Shown: in pieces, positions 49,799-63,562 of the stretch
Position numbering within the stretch: position 1 is the first letter of the stretch
How the letters are laid out: every line of letters starts with the position of its first letter
Source of the DNA: Microlunatus sagamiharensis
GTDB taxonomy: Bacteria > Actinomycetota > Actinomycetes > Propionibacteriales > Propionibacteriaceae
Reading direction: 5' to 3'
DNA length: 64,000 bases
Assembly: GCF_900105785.1 (NCBI RefSeq)
Contig: NZ_LT629799.1
Span: forward strand, 2,418,001 to 2,482,000
Program-made: the position numbers and the translations under genes
The notes under the pieces: model-generated
What the model saw: the letters and a program-made list of their open reading frames with translations, nothing else
What the model was told of the DNA's origin: nothing
Database searches by the model: none

Positions 49799-51559
49799 AT
49801 GACGACCAGCCCGCTGGTGGCCCTGCGGCCGCGGAGGCCACGAGGGGTCGAGCGACGCCCCGACTGGCGCCGCGTCGCGCTGCTCGCACCCAGCGTGGTG
49901 CTCTTCCTGGCCGTCTTCGTCACGGCGATCGAGTCCGCGGTGGAGTACTCGTTCCAGCTCTACTCGCCCGACGGTGCGTACGAGCTCAACACCGTCGCCT
50001 CCTGGACGAAGTTCCTCACCAGCCGCTACTACCTCTCGGTCATCGCGGACACCCTGGTCATCGGGCTCCTGGTCACGGTGATCACGGCCGTGCTCGGCTA
50101 CCTGACCGCCTTCACCATCTACTCGATGCGCAGCCGGGTCGGGCGGGCGGTGCTCAACGCGGTGGTGTTCTCGTCGCTGATCTTCTCCGGGATCGCGAGC
50201 GTCTACTCCTGGCAGCTCGTGCTCGGCGAGGCCGGCTTCCTGAACCAGCTCCTGCGCTCCGTGGGCCTCGCCCCGGTCCGGCTGCTGTACGAGCGCTCCG
50301 CCGTCGTGCTCGCCCTCGTGCACACGCTCCTGCCGATGATGATGCTGCCGATCCTGACCAGCCTGAACCAGGTCGACGGCAGCTACGACGAGGCCGCCCT
50401 CGACATGGGTGCCTCGCGGGTGCGGCGGTTCCTCAGGATCACCCTGCCGCTGAGCTGGCCCGGTCTGGTCGCGGGCGCCCAGCTCACCTTCGCGCTGGCC
50501 ATCTCCAGCTTCACCGCGCCCGCGCTGCTCGGCGGCGGCCGGGTCTCGACGCTGTCGACATCGGTCTACAACCTCGTGGGCACGGCCGACTTCCCGCTCG
50601 CCTCGGTCGCGGCGATCGTGCTGCTTGTGCTGGCCCTCGCCTCCACGGGTCTGTTCGTCCTGGTGCACCGGCGCGTCGGGGAGGTGAGCCAGGGCGGCTC
50701 GACCTTCGTCCCCGCCCGGCCGAAGGGGGTGCGCTGGCTGTCGACCTGGGTCGTGCTCGTCACCGTGTTCCAGGTGCTCCCGGCCGCGATCGTCGTGATC
50801 AGCTCGTTCTCCTCGGTCCCGTACGGCGTCTGGCCCCCGCCCGGCTACTCGACGCGCTGGTACACCAACCTGCTTCAGCAGGACGAGGTGCTCGGCGCCG
50901 CCGGCCGCAGCCTGGTGGTCGCGACCGTCGTGGCCGTGCTCGCGGGCGTCTTCGGCACCGCGGCCTCGCTGGTCTTCAGCCGTCGCCGGTTCCGGGGGGC
51001 CGGTGCGGTGCAGTCGATGCTCTTCACGCCCGTGATCGTGCCCAAGATCGCCTTCGGCTTCGCCGTGTTCATGTTCCTCGGCCGGCTCGGGCTGTCGGGC
51101 GGGCCGGTGGGTGTCGTCCTCGCCCACACGGTCGCCGCGACGCCCTTCGTCATCTCGCTCGTGATGGCGGCGCTCGCCCGCAGCGACCGCACCCTCGACG
51201 ACGCCGCGCTGGACCTGGGGGCGTCGCCGCTGACGGTCTTCCTCCGCTCGACGCTGCCGCAGGTCTTCCCGGCGGCGATGCTCGGCGTCGTCTTCGCCTT
51301 CCTCATGAGCTTCAACGAGGTCGACCTGTCGATCTTCCTGCTGAGCAGCGACAACCAGACGCTGCCCGTGTGGATGTTCGGTTACCTGAACAACTACCAG
51401 GACCCCACCCCGGCCGCGCTCTCGACGCTCATGAGCGTGTTCTCGCTGGTCCTCGTCGCCGTCCTCGTCGGCGGGGCCAGCCTGCTCGGGCGCCGACGCC
51501 GCTCGGCGTTCGGCGGGGTCGCCGACGTCGCAGGAGGACCCGCCCGTGCCGATGCCTGA
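49799..51559 (+). CDS. Fused double ABC permease (PotB-PotC in one chain)
   Basis: 586 residues with about twelve membrane helices. The first half (to ~residue 295) carries the EAA loop YDEAALDMGASRVRRFLRITLP; the second (from ~310) carries LDDAALDLGASPLTVFLRSTLP. Each half corresponds to a complete PotB- or PotC-type permease, so the channel is one polypeptide, as in FbpB-type iron transporters. ATG 49799 has GAGAGG upstream. The 3' end overlaps the next gene by 14 bp. The fused form argues for the ferric/2-aminoethylphosphonate/thiamine branch rather than classical spermidine systems. Confidence 0.92.
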   Translation: MTTSPLVALRPRRPRGVERRPDWRRVALLAPSVVLFLAVFVTAIESAVEYSFQLYSPDGAYELNTVASWTKFLTSRYYLSVIADTLVIGLLVTVITAVLGYLTAFTIYSMRSRVGRAVLNAVVFSSLIFSGIASVYSWQLVLGEAGFLNQLLRSVGLAPVRLLYERSAVVLALVHTLLPMMMLPILTSLNQVDGSYDEAALDMGASRVRRFLRITLPLSWPGLVAGAQLTFALAISSFTAPALLGGGRVSTLSTSVYNLVGTADFPLASVAAIVLLVLALASTGLFVLVHRRVGEVSQGGSTFVPARPKGVRWLSTWVVLVTVFQVLPAAIVVISSFSSVPYGVWPPPGYSTRWYTNLLQQDEVLGAAGRSLVVATVVAVLAGVFGTAASLVFSRRRFRGAGAVQSMLFTPVIVPKIAFGFAVFMFLGRLGLSGGPVGVVLAHTVAATPFVISLVMAALARSDRTLDDAALDLGASPLTVFLRSTLPQVFPAAMLGVVFAFLMSFNEVDLSIFLLSSDNQTLPVWMFGYLNNYQDPTPAALSTLMSVFSLVLVAVLVGGASLLGRRRRSAFGGVADVAGGPARADA

Positions 51560-53111
51560 GCCCACGCCACGTCCCGACGCCCGGCTGAGGCGCGTCGCCG
51601 ACCTCGACGCGAGCTACCTGCGCGAGTACTCGGGCCTGCACGAGGAGTACGACGGCCGTGTCGCCGACCTGTCGCCCGCCGGGGTCGAGGCGATGCTCGG
51701 CCGGCTCGGGGGTCCCGCGTACGCCGACCCCGTCGACGAGCGGCAGGTCGCCGCCACCGAGCACGCCATGAGCGTCCGCTTCGGCCGGCTGCAGCAGCAC
51801 CGTCGCGACCCCTGGGTCCACGTGGAGGCGCTCGACCTCTCGCAGTACGAGCGCGGGTACGCCCCGGCCGAGGACCGGCGACGCGCCCGGGAGGAGCACC
51901 TGGGCCACTACCCCGACCTCGTGTCGGCCGCGCTCGCCTCGCTCGACCTCGTCCCCGCGCCGGTCGCCGGGATCTTCGCGCCGGCCGTGCGCGGGCTGGC
52001 GGCGGGGCTCGCGGACGACGACGGCGACACCGCGAGCCGGGCGCGCACCGCGCTCGCCACGCTGGGTCGACGGCTCGAGGAGCTCGCGACGGGCTCCGAG
52101 GTGCCCGTCGGCATCGGCCCGGAGCTGCTCGAGGAGCTGCTGTCGTGCGAGGACGAGGTCCGTCTGGACACCGGCACCCTCGCGGACCTCGCTCGGAGCG
52201 AGTACGACCGGATGGAGCCGGTGCGCGTCGAGGCGGAGGAGCGGCTCGCCCGCGAGCTCGGGGTCCCGCAGGACCGGGTCCTCGCGGCCGTCCTCGACGA
52301 CCACGGCGACTTCGACGCCGTGCTCGCCGACACCGCGACCATGGTCGCGCGCGCCGCCCGGTTCGCCGCGGAGCGGGAGCTCATCGCGCGGGTGGAGGAC
52401 GACTGCCGCGTGGAGGCGTCCCCGCCGGCGCGCCGCTTCGCCGCCGGCCGCGTGAGCTGGCGGGCGCCCTGGGAGTCCTGCGGCGGCTCCTACTTCCACA
52501 TCACGCCGCCCAGCCCGGCGTTCACCCCGGCCGAGGTCGACCGGTGGCTCTCCCGCTTCAACCGGCCCGCCATGACGGTGATGGCCGTGCACGAGATCGC
52601 GCCCGGGCACGCCAGCCACGCGCTGATGATGGCCGACGCCGCGACCACGGTGCGCCGCACCCTCTGGTCGGAGCTCTTCTTCGAGGGCTGGGCCCACTAC
52701 GCCGAGGAGATGGTCTGGGAGGAGGGCTACGGCGCCGGCTCCGCGGCCTACCAGCACGCGATGGCGCTCGACGCGCAGATGCGGGCCGTCCGGGTCGAGG
52801 CCGTGCTGGCGATCCACGCCGGCGGGGCGTCCGTCGCGGAGGCCACCGCCCTGTTCGAGGAGCGGACCTTCCTCTCCGGGCCCGCGGCGCACGCGGAGGC
52901 GCTGCGCTGCGCCTGGGAGCCCAGCTGCACGCGCTACACGGTGGGCAAGGTCGCCTTCCGCAACCTCCGGGAGTCCGCCTCGCGGAGCGCGGGCCGTCCC
53001 ACCCTCAGGGCGTTCCACGACCAGCTGCTGGCCCTGGGCTCGCCCCCGGTGGGGCTGGCCGCCGACGTGCTGGGTCTCGACTGCGGGCTGCCCCGCCGGG
53101 GCGCGGCGTGA
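51546..53111 (+). CDS. DUF885-family zinc peptidase/carboxypeptidase
   Basis: 521 residues, no signal peptide. GTG 51546 is preferred because GGAGG ends 8 nt upstream; ATG 51552 is an alternative. The DUF885 active site is HEIAPGHASHA (His349, Glu350, His355) with the downstream Glu380 in LFFEGWAHYAEEM, the expected HExxxGH...E metal site. Other family stretches are YFHITPPS and VEAVLAIHAGG. Members are thought to be metallo-carboxypeptidases or amidases. In this cluster it likely trims the imported compound in the cytoplasm. Confidence 0.85.
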   Translation: MPMPEPTPRPDARLRRVADLDASYLREYSGLHEEYDGRVADLSPAGVEAMLGRLGGPAYADPVDERQVAATEHAMSVRFGRLQQHRRDPWVHVEALDLSQYERGYAPAEDRRRAREEHLGHYPDLVSAALASLDLVPAPVAGIFAPAVRGLAAGLADDDGDTASRARTALATLGRRLEELATGSEVPVGIGPELLEELLSCEDEVRLDTGTLADLARSEYDRMEPVRVEAEERLARELGVPQDRVLAAVLDDHGDFDAVLADTATMVARAARFAAERELIARVEDDCRVEASPPARRFAAGRVSWRAPWESCGGSYFHITPPSPAFTPAEVDRWLSRFNRPAMTVMAVHEIAPGHASHALMMADAATTVRRTLWSELFFEGWAHYAEEMVWEEGYGAGSAAYQHAMALDAQMRAVRVEAVLAIHAGGASVAEATALFEERTFLSGPAAHAEALRCAWEPSCTRYTVGKVAFRNLRESASRSAGRPTLRAFHDQLLALGSPPVGLAADVLGLDCGLPRRGAA

Positions 53112-58929: not shown

Positions 58930-60495
58930 GTGAGGCGCGCCTGGATCCCCGGTCGCGACGTCAGAGCCGAACGCCACCCCGGCCACGCCGGGCTGGCCAA
59001 GGCCCCGCACGACGGGGCGCGACCGACGGCCCTCGTCCTCGGTGGCGGGATCGCCGGCATCGCCGCCGCGGTCGGCCTGGCCGAGCGCGGGGTCGGCGTC
59101 ACCCTGGTCGAGCGCGAGGCGCAGCTGGGCGGTCGCGTCCGCGCCTGGCCCGTCGAGCAGGCCGACGGCAGCACCACGACCATGAGCCGCGGCTTCCACG
59201 CCTTCTTCCGCCAGTACTACAACCTCCGGGCGCTGCTGCGCCGCGTCGACCCGGCGCTCGAGGGCCTGACCCCCGTCTACGACTACCCGCTCGTCCTCGC
59301 TGGCGGGCACCGCGACTCCTTCGCCAAGGTCCCGAAGACGCCGCCGCTCAACATGGCGGCCTTCGTCGCGCAGAGCCCGAGCTTCAAGGCCTCCGACCTG
59401 GCGAACATCGACAAGGTCAAGGTCTGGGAGCTGCTCGACGTCGACTTCCCCCGGACCTTCTCCGACCACGACGGCGAGAGCGCCGCCGAGTTCCTCGACC
59501 GGCTCGGCTTCCCCGACGCGGCACGGCACCTGGCCCTCGAGGTCTTCGCCCGCAGCTTCTTCGCCTCCCCCGACGAGTTCTCCGCCGGTGAGTTGGTCGG
59601 CATGTTCCACAGCTACTTCCTCGGCTCGTCCGAGGGCCTGCTCTTCGACGTCCCCGTCGACGACTACGACACCGTCTTCTGGGCGCCGCTGGCGCGCTAC
59701 CTGGAGCGGCTCGGGGTCGAGGTCCGCACGGGCGAGTCCGTCGAGGCGCTCGACCTCACGTCGGGCGACGGGCAGGTCCGGGTGACCACGGACGCCGGCG
59801 GCCTCACCGCCGACACCGTCGTCCTCGCGACCGACCTGCGTACGACGCGCCGTCTCGTCGAGGCGACGGAGAGTACCACGGACGACGCCGAGTGGCGCAG
59901 CCGGCTCCTCGAGACCACGAACGCGCCCCGCTTCGCCGTCTGGCGCCTGTGGCTCGACCGCCGGGTCGACGCCGACCGGCCGCCCTTCCTCGGCACCAGC
60001 GGCTACGGCCCGATGGACAACATCACCGTGCTGGAGCGCTTCGAGGCCGGCGCCCGCCGCTGGTCGGACGACCACGACGCCTCCGTCGTCGAGGTGCACG
60101 CGTACGCGCTGCAACCCGAGGACGGCGACGACGAGCAGGTCCGCGCCACGCTGCGCGCCGAGCTGGCCCGCGTCTACCCCGAGACCGCCGACGCGCAGGT
60201 CGTCGCCGACGAGTGGCTCGTGGAGGACGACTGCCCGCTGGTCGGCACCAGCCCCTGGCTGCGGCGCCCCGAGGTCGGCACGCCCGACCCACGGCTCGTC
60301 CTCGCGGGCGACGGCATCCGGTGCGACTACCCCGTGGCCCTCATGGAGCGCGCGGCGACCACCGGCCTCCTGGCCGCGAACACGCTGCTCGGGCGCTGGG
60401 GCCTCGCGGGGCACGACCTGTGGACCGTCCCGACCAGCACCCGGCAGCCGCGGCTGCTGGGGGCTCGGACTCTCCTGGAGCGCGTCGGGTCCTGA
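58930..60495 (+). CDS. crtU: Carotenoid phi-ring synthase (isorenieratene synthase type), FAD-dependent
   Basis: 521 residues. FAD motif VLGGGIAGIAAAVGLAERGV, then MSRGFHAFFRQYYNLRALLRR, EVFARSFFASPDEFSAGELV, GLLFDVPVDDYDTVFW, LGTSGYGPMDNITVLERFE and VLAGDGIRCDYPVALMERAATTGLLAANTLLGRWG, which match the CrtU desaturase/methyltransferase that turns a beta-ionone end into an aromatic phi-end. The N-terminal ~30 residues precede the Rossmann fold. GTG 58930 is chosen for GGAGG 6 nt upstream; GTG 58897 has poorly spaced AAGGAG. It acts in carotenoid synthesis in the membrane, with crtI and a CruF-like gene nearby on the other strand. Cyclase and phytoene synthase genes are not in the window. Confidence 0.87.
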   Translation: MRRAWIPGRDVRAERHPGHAGLAKAPHDGARPTALVLGGGIAGIAAAVGLAERGVGVTLVEREAQLGGRVRAWPVEQADGSTTTMSRGFHAFFRQYYNLRALLRRVDPALEGLTPVYDYPLVLAGGHRDSFAKVPKTPPLNMAAFVAQSPSFKASDLANIDKVKVWELLDVDFPRTFSDHDGESAAEFLDRLGFPDAARHLALEVFARSFFASPDEFSAGELVGMFHSYFLGSSEGLLFDVPVDDYDTVFWAPLARYLERLGVEVRTGESVEALDLTSGDGQVRVTTDAGGLTADTVVLATDLRTTRRLVEATESTTDDAEWRSRLLETTNAPRFAVWRLWLDRRVDADRPPFLGTSGYGPMDNITVLERFEAGARRWSDDHDASVVEVHAYALQPEDGDDEQVRATLRAELARVYPETADAQVVADEWLVEDDCPLVGTSPWLRRPEVGTPDPRLVLAGDGIRCDYPVALMERAATTGLLAANTLLGRWGLAGHDLWTVPTSTRQPRLLGARTLLERVGS

Positions 60496-60539
60496 GACCG
60501 ATCTTGGCGTCCATCCTGCTCAACCGGGGTCAAGTTGTC

Positions 60540-60568
60540 GTTACGGCCGAGCGGTCAAGGGCCGTAAC
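60540..60568. terminator. Dyad after crtU, at the left edge of the lower-GC insert
   Basis: GTTACGGCC (60540-60548) and GGCCGTAAC (60560-60568) form a 9-bp perfect stem with an 11-nt loop, 45 bp after the crtU stop. It may terminate crtU or mark the insert boundary. Confidence 0.45.
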
Positions 60569-60659
60569 CTCCCACCTCACGATTAAGTCGTCCGGATGCT
60601 CATCGAGGCTGCGCCTGTGTGCTCCGTACGAGGGTCGGCCAACGCGCTAGCGTCTTGTC

Positions 60660-61397
60660 ATGGCTGAGTTGAACACGGAGTGGGCGCTCGAGAAGCTACG
60701 CGGGTTCCTTCGCGTTCTTGAGCTTCGCTACGTACCGGATGGGCCCAATACGTTCGGCTTCGCCCACTACGCGCTTGCTAATCCGAAAGAGGAGGTCCAA
60801 GCGGCAGCGCAGGTCGCGGAGCAAATTCTTGACCGGATCGTCCTCGACTGGCGAACGGCAGATTGGATTGCGCCTGCCAAGCAGGCCTGGTGGCGTCACC
60901 GCGAGGCAACTCACAGGGCGATCGCCCAGCTTGAGGCACAAGAGGAGCTTGAGGCAAACCTTGGCAGCGTCGGACCCAAATTATCTGCGGCCAGCCTGCA
61001 CCCTTGGGTGTGGGGAAGCATCGCCGGCCTGTGGGGCAGCGGTCACTTCGGCGAAGCCGTGGGCGCAGCCGCTCGGGCGATCAACGCGCAAGCTCAGTCG
61101 AAGCTCGGCCGACGGGACGCCTCTGAGTGGGCGCTCCTAAGTGACGCGTTTTCGCCTAACCGGCCGATCGAGGGTCACCCACGCTTGAGGCTCTCCGAGG
61201 ACGACGGCGGCGACACTTTTAGAAATCAGCACGCAGGAGCTGGCGACCTGGCGCGTGGGCTTTATAGGGCCGTGCGTAACCCGCTTTCTCACGAGGAGAC
61301 CGAAATCGCAGAGAACGTCGCGCTCGAGTACGTCGCAGCGTTCAGCGTTCTCGCGCGGTGGGTCGACGCCGCCGAGGTTCTTCCGGCCGACAACTGA
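60660..61397 (+). CDS. TIGR02391-like protein in a lower-GC insert
   Basis: 245 residues. The C-terminal half (SDAFSPNRPIEGHPRLRLSEDDGGDTFRNQHAGAGDLARGLYRAVRNPLSHE) has the conserved RNxxxHE and preceding Gly/Phe pattern I associate with the TIGR02391 (Ymh-type) family, often found near mobile or defence genes. The N-terminus is helical with AAAQVAEQILDRIVLDWRT. Codon use (AAT, AAA, TTT, GCT, CTT, AGA) is clearly unlike the neighbours, supporting horizontal transfer. ATG 60660 has no strong ribosome site. RNase-like (HEPN-type) activity is conceivable from the RNPLSHE motif but not shown. Confidence 0.6.
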   Translation: MAELNTEWALEKLRGFLRVLELRYVPDGPNTFGFAHYALANPKEEVQAAAQVAEQILDRIVLDWRTADWIAPAKQAWWRHREATHRAIAQLEAQEELEANLGSVGPKLSAASLHPWVWGSIAGLWGSGHFGEAVGAAARAINAQAQSKLGRRDASEWALLSDAFSPNRPIEGHPRLRLSEDDGGDTFRNQHAGAGDLARGLYRAVRNPLSHEETEIAENVALEYVAAFSVLARWVDAAEVLPADN

Positions 61398-62044
61398 GTC
61401 TCTCATCCCGTCGCTCCCCCATTTGCGGCGCAGCGGACACCCTCGGTGACCTTCACTAGGGGTCGTGTGTGGCTTAGGGCGATTCGCTGGACGCGCTCCG
61501 CACGTGGGTCCTAGCCGACCATCAGGATGCGGGGCGAAGAGTCGACAAGCCCACGGGGTCTAAGTGCACCCATAGGTCGCCTCATCAACTCGTTGTGCGG
61601 ACTGTATGGGTACTTGGGCCAGCGAGCCGACGTCGAGCGATCCGCCTCGCTCGGGAACTGACACGACGAACGTCAGGTAGTACACAGCGACCTCGCCGAG
61701 CGTGCTCAGATCGGAGAGGACGGGCGTCTTCCTCCAAGCATCTCAGGTGCGCCACAAGTCCATAGGTCCGAGCACAGGAGCACCCTACGGGCATGAACTC
61801 GACCAACCGTGGATGGCGTCGGGCAGCAGTTGGGGCCTGCCTACTCCAGGTGTCCCGCACGCGGGTCCTCTTACTGCGGCGGACTGCAGCCTTCGCCAAA
61901 TCAACTATCCGCGAGCGGCTCGGCGTGCGGGTTCAACGAGTTCGTGAGAAGCGAGACGGCCGCACACCTTATCGTCGGCTTGGCTAAACAAGGGCACTAC
62001 GACAAGACGATCGACTCCTGCGTTAGAAGCTCGTCGCGACGGCC
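61398..62044. other. 647-bp lower-GC stretch without a supportable gene
   Basis: Composition is lower in GC than the flanks and stop codons occur in all frames. Short open frames (for example 61585-61899 minus) lack family resemblance, ribosome sites and codon bias. No tRNA, inverted terminal repeats or target-site duplication could be seen. It looks like the decayed remainder of an inserted element. Confidence 0.5.
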
Positions 62045-63562
62045 TCAAACCGGCAGGGGCCCGCTGCTGGTGTCGCCGATGATGCGCTTGTAGGCGAGCT
62101 CGGCCGAGATCAGGCAGATCGGCATCCCGATGCCCGGGTTGGTGCTGGCGCCGACGTAGTAGAGGTTCGACAGCCTCTTGCTGATGTTGTTCGGGCGGAA
62201 CGCCGTCTGCTTCATCGTGTGCGCCAGCCCCAGGGCAGAACCGCCGTACGCGTTGTAGTCGGCGGAGAAGTCCCGCGAGGTGTAGGTGCGCTCGAAGACG
62301 ATCCGCGACTCGAGGTCGGGGACGTCGAAGTCGGCCGCCAGCAGGTCCAGGGTGCGGCGACGGTAGGTGGCGATGTCGGCGTCGCTCATCGGCAGCCCCG
62401 GCGCAACCGGCACCAGCACGAAGAGGTTCTCGTGGTCCTCGGGCGCCGTCGACTCGTCGGTCCGGCTGGGCGCGCAGACGTAGTAGGACGGGTCGTCGGG
62501 CCAGGCCGGGCTGTCGAAGATCTGGCCGAAGCTGCGCTTCCAGTCCTGCCCGAAGGCCAGGTTGTGGTGGGTCAGGCTCGGCACCCGCCCCTTCAGCCCG
62601 AGGTAGAGGATGAACGCGCTCGGCGCGAGCGTCTTCTTCGACCAGTAGCGGGCCGAGTAGGTGCGGTCCTGCTTCTCCAGCAGCTCGGTCTCGGTGTGCG
62701 CCATGTCGGCGTTGGAGATGACGAGGTCGGCGTGCAGCACCTCCCCCGACTCGAGCCGTACGCCGGTCGCCTTGCCGCCGTCGCTGAGGATCTGCGCCAC
62801 CGGCGCCCCGGTGCGGTAGGTGACGCCGTGCTTGGTGCCGATCGCCTCGAGCGCCTGGATGATCGAGTAGATGCCGCCCCTGGGGAAGAACACGCCCATG
62901 TTGAAGTCGATGTGGCTCATGATGTTGTAGAGCGCCGGGGTGTTGTACGGCGAGGAACCGAGGAAGACCAGCTGGTACTCCAGGATCTTCTGCACCGTGT
63001 CGGTGGAGAAGGACCGGCTGATGTACTTGTGCATGTTCTCGAAGACGTGCAGCTGACGGCCCTGCACCGCGGTCTTGCGGTCGATGAAGTCGAAGAAGCT
63101 GTCGTGGTTGCGGTACATGAACTGGTCGATGGCGATCGCGTACTGCTCCGCCGAGCTGTCCAGGTAGGTCCGCAGCGCCTGCCCGCTGCCGGGCTCCAGC
63201 CGCTCGAAGGTCTCCACGTCGCGGTCGAGGTCGGAGAACATGTCGACCTCGAGGTCGGTGCCCCGGAAGGCGATCCGGTACGACGGGTCGAGCCGCTGCA
63301 GGTCCAGGTGGTCCTCGACCCGCTCGCCAAGTAGCGCGAAGAAGTGCTCGAAGACGTCGGGCATGAGGTACCAGGACGGGCCCATGTCGAAGCGGAAGCC
63401 GTCGGCCTCGAAGTAGTTGGCCCGCCCACCCAGCAGGGCGTTCTTCTCCAGGACGGTGACCTCGAAGCCGCGCTTCCCGAGGAGCGCCGCGCTGCCCAGG
63501 CCTCCGATGCCGCCGCCGACGACGAGTGCTGTGCTCTTGGGGCTCACAGGACTGGGGCTCAC
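62045..63562 (-). CDS. crtI: Phytoene desaturase-family enzyme (CrtI/CrtD-type)
   Basis: 505 residues from GTG 63562 (GTGA overlap with the CruF-like gene). FAD motif VVGGGIGGLGSAALLGKRGFEV, ALLGGRANYFEADGFRFDMGPSWYLMP, GGIYSIIQALEAIG, and the C-terminal YYVGASTNPGIGMPICLISAELAYKRI are typical of bacterial carotenoid desaturases. It introduces double bases in acyclic carotenes; whether it is the phytoene desaturase proper or a 3,4-desaturase (CrtD) for end-group modification cannot be decided here. It is transcribed with the CruF-like gene, convergent to crtU. Confidence 0.9.
   Translation of the reverse strand: MSPSPVSPKSTALVVGGGIGGLGSAALLGKRGFEVTVLEKNALLGGRANYFEADGFRFDMGPSWYLMPDVFEHFFALLGERVEDHLDLQRLDPSYRIAFRGTDLEVDMFSDLDRDVETFERLEPGSGQALRTYLDSSAEQYAIAIDQFMYRNHDSFFDFIDRKTAVQGRQLHVFENMHKYISRSFSTDTVQKILEYQLVFLGSSPYNTPALYNIMSHIDFNMGVFFPRGGIYSIIQALEAIGTKHGVTYRTGAPVAQILSDGGKATGVRLESGEVLHADLVISNADMAHTETELLEKQDRTYSARYWSKKTLAPSAFILYLGLKGRVPSLTHHNLAFGQDWKRSFGQIFDSPAWPDDPSYYVCAPSRTDESTAPEDHENLFVLVPVAPGLPMSDADIATYRRRTLDLLAADFDVPDLESRIVFERTYTSRDFSADYNAYGGSALGLAHTMKQTAFRPNNISKRLSNLYYVGASTNPGIGMPICLISAELAYKRIIGDTSSGPLPV

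Follow-up and report, generated by a model that had tools for sequence, protein, structure and literature searches.

A solo Ymh-family HEPN gene acquired between two convergent carotenoid-type genes of Microlunatus sagamiharensis

In Microlunatus sagamiharensis, 1,549 bp separate the stop codons of two convergent genes, both of which are intact, with the plus-strand gene ending at 60495 and the minus-strand gene at 62045 (positions in the window, i.e., the whole stretch of 64,000 nucleotides that was analysed). The features of this intergenic insert are collected in Table 1. The GC content of the insert is 0.632, as compared with a mean of 0.728 (standard deviation, 0.028) for window stretches of equal length, only 1 of 1,250 of which has a GC content as low. 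The two flanking genes have GC contents at the third codon position (GC3) of 0.967 and 0.966, far above that of the insert gene. The contrast in composition is one of codon use, because GC3 differs while the crtI-like right-flank gene, with its host-like GC3, also has a lowish plain GC content (0.667). Elsewhere in the window, a strong AT skew (down to −0.42) is seen at 50000–51750, where GC is normal, and the window contains no tRNA.

Table 1. Features of the insert and its flanks (positions in the window)
Feature	Position	Strand	Basis
Left flank, FAD-dependent amine-oxidase-fold gene	58930..60495	+	PF01593, 125.2 bits
Foreign insert between two convergent genes	60496..62044	.	Low GC; blastn breakpoints against relatives G018 and G014
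Perfect inverted repeat, 9-bp arms, 11-nt loop	60540..60568	.	91 bp before HEPN gene, just after left flank
TAGCGT, leaderless-type −10 box, 6 nt before ATG	60648..60653	+	A at −11, T at −7
Solo Ymh-family HEPN gene, 245 aa	60660..61397	+	PF09509, 81.8 bits; GC3 0.707
N-terminal helical region, residues ~1–101	60660..60962	+	Helices 6–19, 43–60 and 78–101 in full-length model
HEPN (Hypoth_Ymh) domain, residues 112–235	60993..61364	+	Pfam match; domain model pLDDT 88.8
Predicted active site R206-N207-P-L-S-H211 (Rx4H)	61275..61292	+	Motif identical across alignments
Non-coding tail of insert	61398..62044	.	647 bp; stop count as in shuffles
Right flank, crtI-family phytoene desaturase	62045..63553	-	TIGR02734, 512.5 bits (cut-off, 238.1)

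The sequence-only reading of this DNA, made before the present analysis, had named the flanking genes crtU and crtI. The crtI label agrees with the TIGR02734 score of the right-flank gene, but the name crtU is absent among the 25 profile matches listed for the left-flank gene, the best of which, HpnE (156.7), lies under its own cut-off. A second homologue of the left-flank gene is present elsewhere in the genomes of two relatives, G018 and G014 (L033 and L034; 65–67% identity), and is lacking in the window genome (E ≤ 1e-60). In the same two relatives the junction itself could be read. Their left-flank proteins are 87% (G018) and 81% (G014) identical to that of the window, and their right-flank proteins 92% and 90%; the gene order is kept over both flanks and one gene further on (86% and 83%). 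The blastn alignment with G018 breaks at 60496 and restarts at 62042, and that with G014 breaks at 60495 and restarts at 62033, with only 24 and 27 unaligned bases, respectively, in the junction, as against ~1.54 kb in the window. The junction is therefore empty in 2 of the 2 relatives where it is readable, and the gene is not a feature of this place across the genus. It was likewise absent from all of 15 further genus stretches downstream of left-flank homologues, 11 of which hold only distant crtI-like genes (31–38%). The insert is a real, acquired, single-gene insert. The earlier claim of a foreign, lower-GC insert is upheld by its GC and GC3, by the empty site in both readable relatives, and by the position of the closest protein on a Streptomyces plasmid, whereas the term island overstated what is a single gene. 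The simplest account, across these three genomes, is a single gain in the M. sagamiharensis lineage, with a Streptomyces plasmid or phage probably being the source pool. A single Ymh-branch HEPN gene would have been acquired and have settled in the short convergent gap, with neither neighbour broken.

Transposon-type ends were looked for and rejected, as neither a target-site duplication nor terminal repeats were found. The longest exact word shared by the two ends of the insert is 6 nt (reached by 170 of 500 shuffles), the best 12-mer has 9 matches (128 of 500), and in the inverted comparison 497 and 357 of 500 shuffles reach the observed values. The 647-bp tail is non-coding, with 35 stops in six frames (36.0, standard deviation 5.1, in shuffled sequence) and GC contents by codon position of 0.61, 0.60, and 0.68, i.e., at most a weak rise at position 3. 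The same stretch had been described as ~650 bp of decayed sequence; its non-coding nature is borne out by the stop count, but decay is not, an intact counterpart not having been found. No plasmid counterpart was found by blastn, all 4 hits of which fall within the gene; the 95 other relatives gave only four short matches of 22–33 bases (in 4 of 95), which chance can explain in a GC-rich setting; and tblastn gave only weak matches (E, 0.016 and 0.031). The possibility that the tail is a remnant of a known gene was rejected, with no meaningful match in any of these three comparisons. The insert holds no second supported open reading frame and no match to Rfam. A structured RNA or type III antitoxin was also rejected, on the missing Rfam match and on folding no better than that of shuffled sequence for both the 164-nt 5' stretch (z, −0.26) and the tail (z, 0.16; 20 shuffles). 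A very short antitoxin or RNA beside the HEPN gene is possible.

The gene is the sole copy in its own genome by protein search, and also the only match there to PF09509 (Hypoth_Ymh), which it matches well above the cut-off of 25 bits and over profile positions 2–119 of 119. It had been called TIGR02391-like. The NCBIfam model TIGR02391 covers the same domain as PF09509, and relatives on plasmids are annotated as TIGR02391 family proteins; however, the gene is not filed under TIGR02391, because its score of 22.7 bits is below the cut-off of 39.45, and it is the PF09509 assignment that stands. Ymh (PF09509) is described in a part of Anantharaman et al. 2013 (PMC3710099) as a family of the HEPN superfamily with a conserved Rx4–6H motif, and the gene has this motif as R206-x4-H211, within the RNPLSHE word (residues 206–212) that had been picked out from the letters alone. 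All 17 rows of the alignment, the window protein among them, share R206, N207, and H211, as do 15 of 15 and 9 of 9 rows of two other alignments; Glu223 is likewise invariant. Seven sequences left out of the 17-row alignment (L005–L010 and L016) all show RNx3H, and the motif count is exclusive of L011 and L012 (unextracted) and L013 and L014 (motif unread). The N-terminal region (residues ~1–101) gave no Pfam match, and may be a sensor or control part.

Structures were predicted as monomers, for the full-length protein (m12f2fdb2dcd1) and for the HEPN domain alone (m0388d7ac792b). The full-length model (pLDDT, 81.3; pTM, 0.53) resembles the HEPN RNases Csm6 (Z-score, 5.6), RnlA (5.0), and LsoA (4.9) only amid a crowd of helical folds. 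Because these PDB relatives are weak, the domain was predicted alone, giving a pTM of 0.82 (for pLDDT, see Table 1). The top two VIA-align rows for the domain model are the HEPN domain of sacsin (3o10; Z-score, 9.2; 2.9 Å over 105 residues) and an archaeal HEPN protein (2hsb; Z-score, 8.3; 3.7 Å over 109 residues), and 13 of rows 1–19 name HEPN, Csm6, or LsoA, with the caution that helical bundles with Z-scores under about 13 can represent a common arrangement. The titles in these rows without such naming are those of 3mfn, 1ufb, 2q00, 7bxo, and 2jpu, and the same rows contain 5yep, termed a HEPN toxin in a passage of PMC11087260; a plainly unrelated structure, a designed protein, first appears at row 20 (Z-score, 5.0). 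Besides the HEPN domains in this list, others are possible. Foldseek alone returned no structure at E ≤ 0.001 for either model, and the BFVD fold search with the full-length model nothing at the same threshold. The PDB sequence search with profile A1 gave 6 sequences up to E 1, the best (0.021) being RD3 and none being named HEPN. The predicted model keeps a nuclease-like site, and the fold, motif, and family taken together give good support for the HEPN fold. The earlier suggestion of a HEPN-type RNase is thus backed by the family (PF09509, as treated in the pertinent part of PMC3710099), the invariant motif, and the domain fold, and the protein is very likely a HEPN RNase, as predicted.

Relatives are held by 48 of 72,556 plasmid records, 34 of them from Streptomyces, with the best being 64–65% identical. 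The neighbourhoods of 16 of these 48 were compared by product name only; no partner product recurs among them, 15 are not R-M operons, and 8 list an integrase, recombinase, or transposase, a raw count that leaves aside the background rate for plasmids at large. The nearest relative, in S. cynarae, adjoins a Tn7-like operon of TnsA, transposase, ATPase, and TniQ genes; HEPN genes carried by Tn7-like elements are mentioned in a passage of PMC8649781. On the Rhodococcus plasmid pDF03 (L038:6769–11824), a relative lies within a type I R-M operon of the order hsdM-hsdS-ymh-hsdR, with overlapping gene ends; SprT-like, TIR, and HIT genes follow this operon. Among viral sequences, two profile scans gave the same 7 contigs with relatives, one of which (L056) is apparently the linear plasmid L044 again, leaving 6 distinct contigs, while a scan with the single protein gave no match, and none was found by tblastn in 50,697 named phage records. 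The nearest relatives in predicted proviruses show 57% identity, with neighbours including terminase (L054 and L055), DNA-clamp and Sak4-like genes (L058), a C5 methylase (L059), a phage integrase (L060), and a D5_N protein (L057). In the predicted proviruses L058 and L059, the gene occupies comparable places between genes of similar length, as if at a fixed cargo site. The link to mobile and defence genes proposed at the outset is therefore borne out for the relatives, in the Tn7-like operon, the R-M operon, and the proviruses. These settings also bear on an alternative that we regard as unlikely, namely that the same HEPN RNase serves as cargo in competition between mobile elements (superinfection exclusion or element maintenance), with the chromosomal copy being a leftover or co-opted. 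The 48 plasmid records, the 6 viral contigs besides the apparent L044 plasmid, and a patchy spread in the class (16 of 393 genomes and 11 of 122 genera by profile, own genome included) speak for it; on the other hand, no partner gene for maintenance was seen by product name in the 16 of 48 neighbourhoods, and the chromosome-type R-M operon on pDF03 fits defence of the host or of the plasmid equally.

Phylogenetically, the window gene is sister to the S. cynarae gene (support, 95/92), and the two group with three further Streptomyces plasmid genes (96/91), in a tree with good support for only 5 of its 18 inner branches. The branch of the window copy is long (0.52, as against 0.094 for its sister), which could reflect relaxed constraint. 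PF09509 at large occurs in 38 of the 149 genomes searched in the family and in 0 of 14 controls; protein search in the genus finds the gene in 2 of 20 genomes, own genome included. The second genus copy, in G012 (contig 16; L002:1282–2000; L107), is broken by several in-frame stops; CHAT-domain, GntR, and FtsK/SpoIIIE-type genes lie near it, in what looks like an integrated conjugative element. The long branch and the broken state of this other full-family genus copy, the only one besides that of the window to come out of the protein search, would suit a passenger heading for loss, or a HEPN protein with a role outside defence, such as the non-catalytic RNA binding proposed for MtlR in a section of PMC3710099. 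We consider this very improbable, as the frame is intact and the active-site residues are kept. Moreover, the differences from the nearest relative are biased to the third codon position (71, 46, and 137 at positions 1, 2, and 3 over 244 codons), and, among positions on which 13 or more of the 16 other rows agree, the window copy deviates at 4, a value inside the span of 1 to 25 seen in intact relatives.

Upstream of the gene, a scan for an E. coli-type sigma-70 promoter found nothing. The TAGCGT word resembles the TANNNT element ~12 bp ahead of the start that, according to a passage of PMC3160421, marks leaderless genes and is common in Actinobacteria. Among 21 solo genes, position −11 is A in 16 and position −7 is T in 16, and the box (both bases) is present in 15, including that of the window, as against 15 of 122 control genes (Fisher p, 5e-8, a value that is too small, since related rows such as L036 and L044 are not independent). 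SD-like sites are rarer in the solo genes (4 of 21) than in the controls (55 of 122). The set of 21 is exclusive of L056 (apparently the L044 plasmid), L048 (a fragment), L117, and L118, and the controls come from 12 plasmid loci, without the genes that were truncated at the start. Start codons of plasmid genes follow the records, and those of L015, L054, L055, and L057–L060 were chosen by us; L057 shows the box with either of two start codons one codon apart. Among the 6 solo genes that lack the box at this exact spacing, three (L049, L050, and L015) carry a comparable word shifted by one base, and L038 belongs to an operon. From this box, the mobile unit seems to bring its own promoter, putatively of leaderless type. 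The inverted repeat between the left flank and the gene could be a terminator without a T-run or an operator; a repeat of equal size but different letters occurs upstream of 1 of 21 other genes (L049).

These observations also weigh on the idea that the gene is the orphaned toxin of a toxin–antitoxin pair, or an R-M coupled nuclease of the PrrC kind, whose partner was lost in the 647-bp tail. The relative located between hsdS and hsdR (L038), the non-coding tail, and the PrrC/RloC-like action proposed for a Ymh–paraMORC fusion in a part of PMC3710099 are in its favour. Nevertheless, it appears improbable to us: the 16 of 48 plasmid neighbourhoods compared show no recurrent partner by product name, the leaderless box owned by 15 of the 21 solo genes argues for a stand-alone unit (with the operonic L038 being among the 6 others), and the searches gave no intact counterpart of the tail.

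The family itself was already known, Ymh having been predicted as a HEPN RNase in 2013, and nothing sets the gene apart from it as a family. The gene shares with Ymh the profile match, the Rx4H motif, and the solo architecture, as well as relatives in an R-M operon and on mobile elements. In passages of PMC3710099, Ymh is described as occurring solo, fused to paraMORC, AbiJ-NTD1, or AbiTii, and in an operon with R-M genes, the last link being mentioned also in a part of PMC3506569. In the open-access literature, we found only computational treatments under the accession PF09509, and tests elsewhere may exist. The closest tested analogue found is Tha of Staphylococcus phages, described in a portion of PMC11087260 as a prophage-borne single protein with a C-terminal HEPN motif, RNSIMH, and an RNase activity triggered by a phage tail protein. 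Tha and the window protein are alike in being single proteins with a C-terminal RNx3H (RNPLSH in the latter) and an N-terminal part without a known domain. Kinship was rejected, as hhalign of A1 against the 301-aa protein of phage 80alpha gave a probability of 0.1 (E, 0.57), and Tha matches DUF4145 and HepT-like under the cut-off in Pfam and has no PF09509 match; Tha may therefore serve as a functional model only, not as a family member. RnlA/LsoA and Csm6, which rank among the upper VIA-align matches of either model, have the HEPN fold in common with the gene product but differ in their N-terminal parts and in having a dedicated antitoxin or a CARF sensor, and show no sequence match. PrrC and RloC follow a similar HEPN RNase logic, and one relative of the gene lies in a type I R-M operon, whereas the window gene has no ATPase domain and the window locus no R-M genes. 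Remote HEPN similarity is reported, in a section of PMC9519451, for 6 of 21 systems of an E. coli selection.

Altogether, we lean, somewhat above an even chance, towards an abortive-infection type of HEPN RNase gene that was acquired as a self-contained unit; a role in phage defence or abortive infection is plausible, and we infer RNase activity, sensing, dimer formation, expression, and defence. At the insert, whose neighbours are carotenoid-type genes, neither R-M genes nor any other defence partner turned up; PHROGs gave no match to the gene, and PADLOC-DB 2023 gave no confident system, its weak matches having E-values of 0.0052 (PD-Lambda-3_B, residues 185–239) and 0.013. In the proposed mechanism, the leaderless-type promoter of the gene would provide constitutive low-level expression wherever it lands. 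The protein would form a homodimer, in which the C-terminal HEPN domains build a metal-free RNase site from R206, N207, and H211, with Glu223 as a candidate acidic residue, and the N-terminal helical part would keep the protein silent or sense infection. A phage or other invader might then trigger the protein, so that RNA is cut and growth stops, i.e., abortive infection.

The new elements are the insertion at the crt-gene junction, which is empty in the two readable relatives, the occurrence of close relatives of the gene in proviruses and in a Tn7-like setting, and the leaderless-type box. A broader view, offered tentatively and with more doubt than confidence, is that solo actinobacterial Ymh proteins represent a minimal one-gene anti-phage unit, consisting of a HEPN RNase and a sensor within ~245 residues and a built-in leaderless promoter, and moving without a partner between plasmids, prophages, Tn7-like elements, R-M operons, and chromosomes. 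The compact, intact single-gene copy with clean empty sites is a convenient object for testing stand-alone phage defence by Ymh, and the leaderless-type box is a checkable prediction on the expression of the gene wherever it has landed. If the broader view is true, leaderless translation might permit synthesis of the protein when phage or stress impairs normal initiation.
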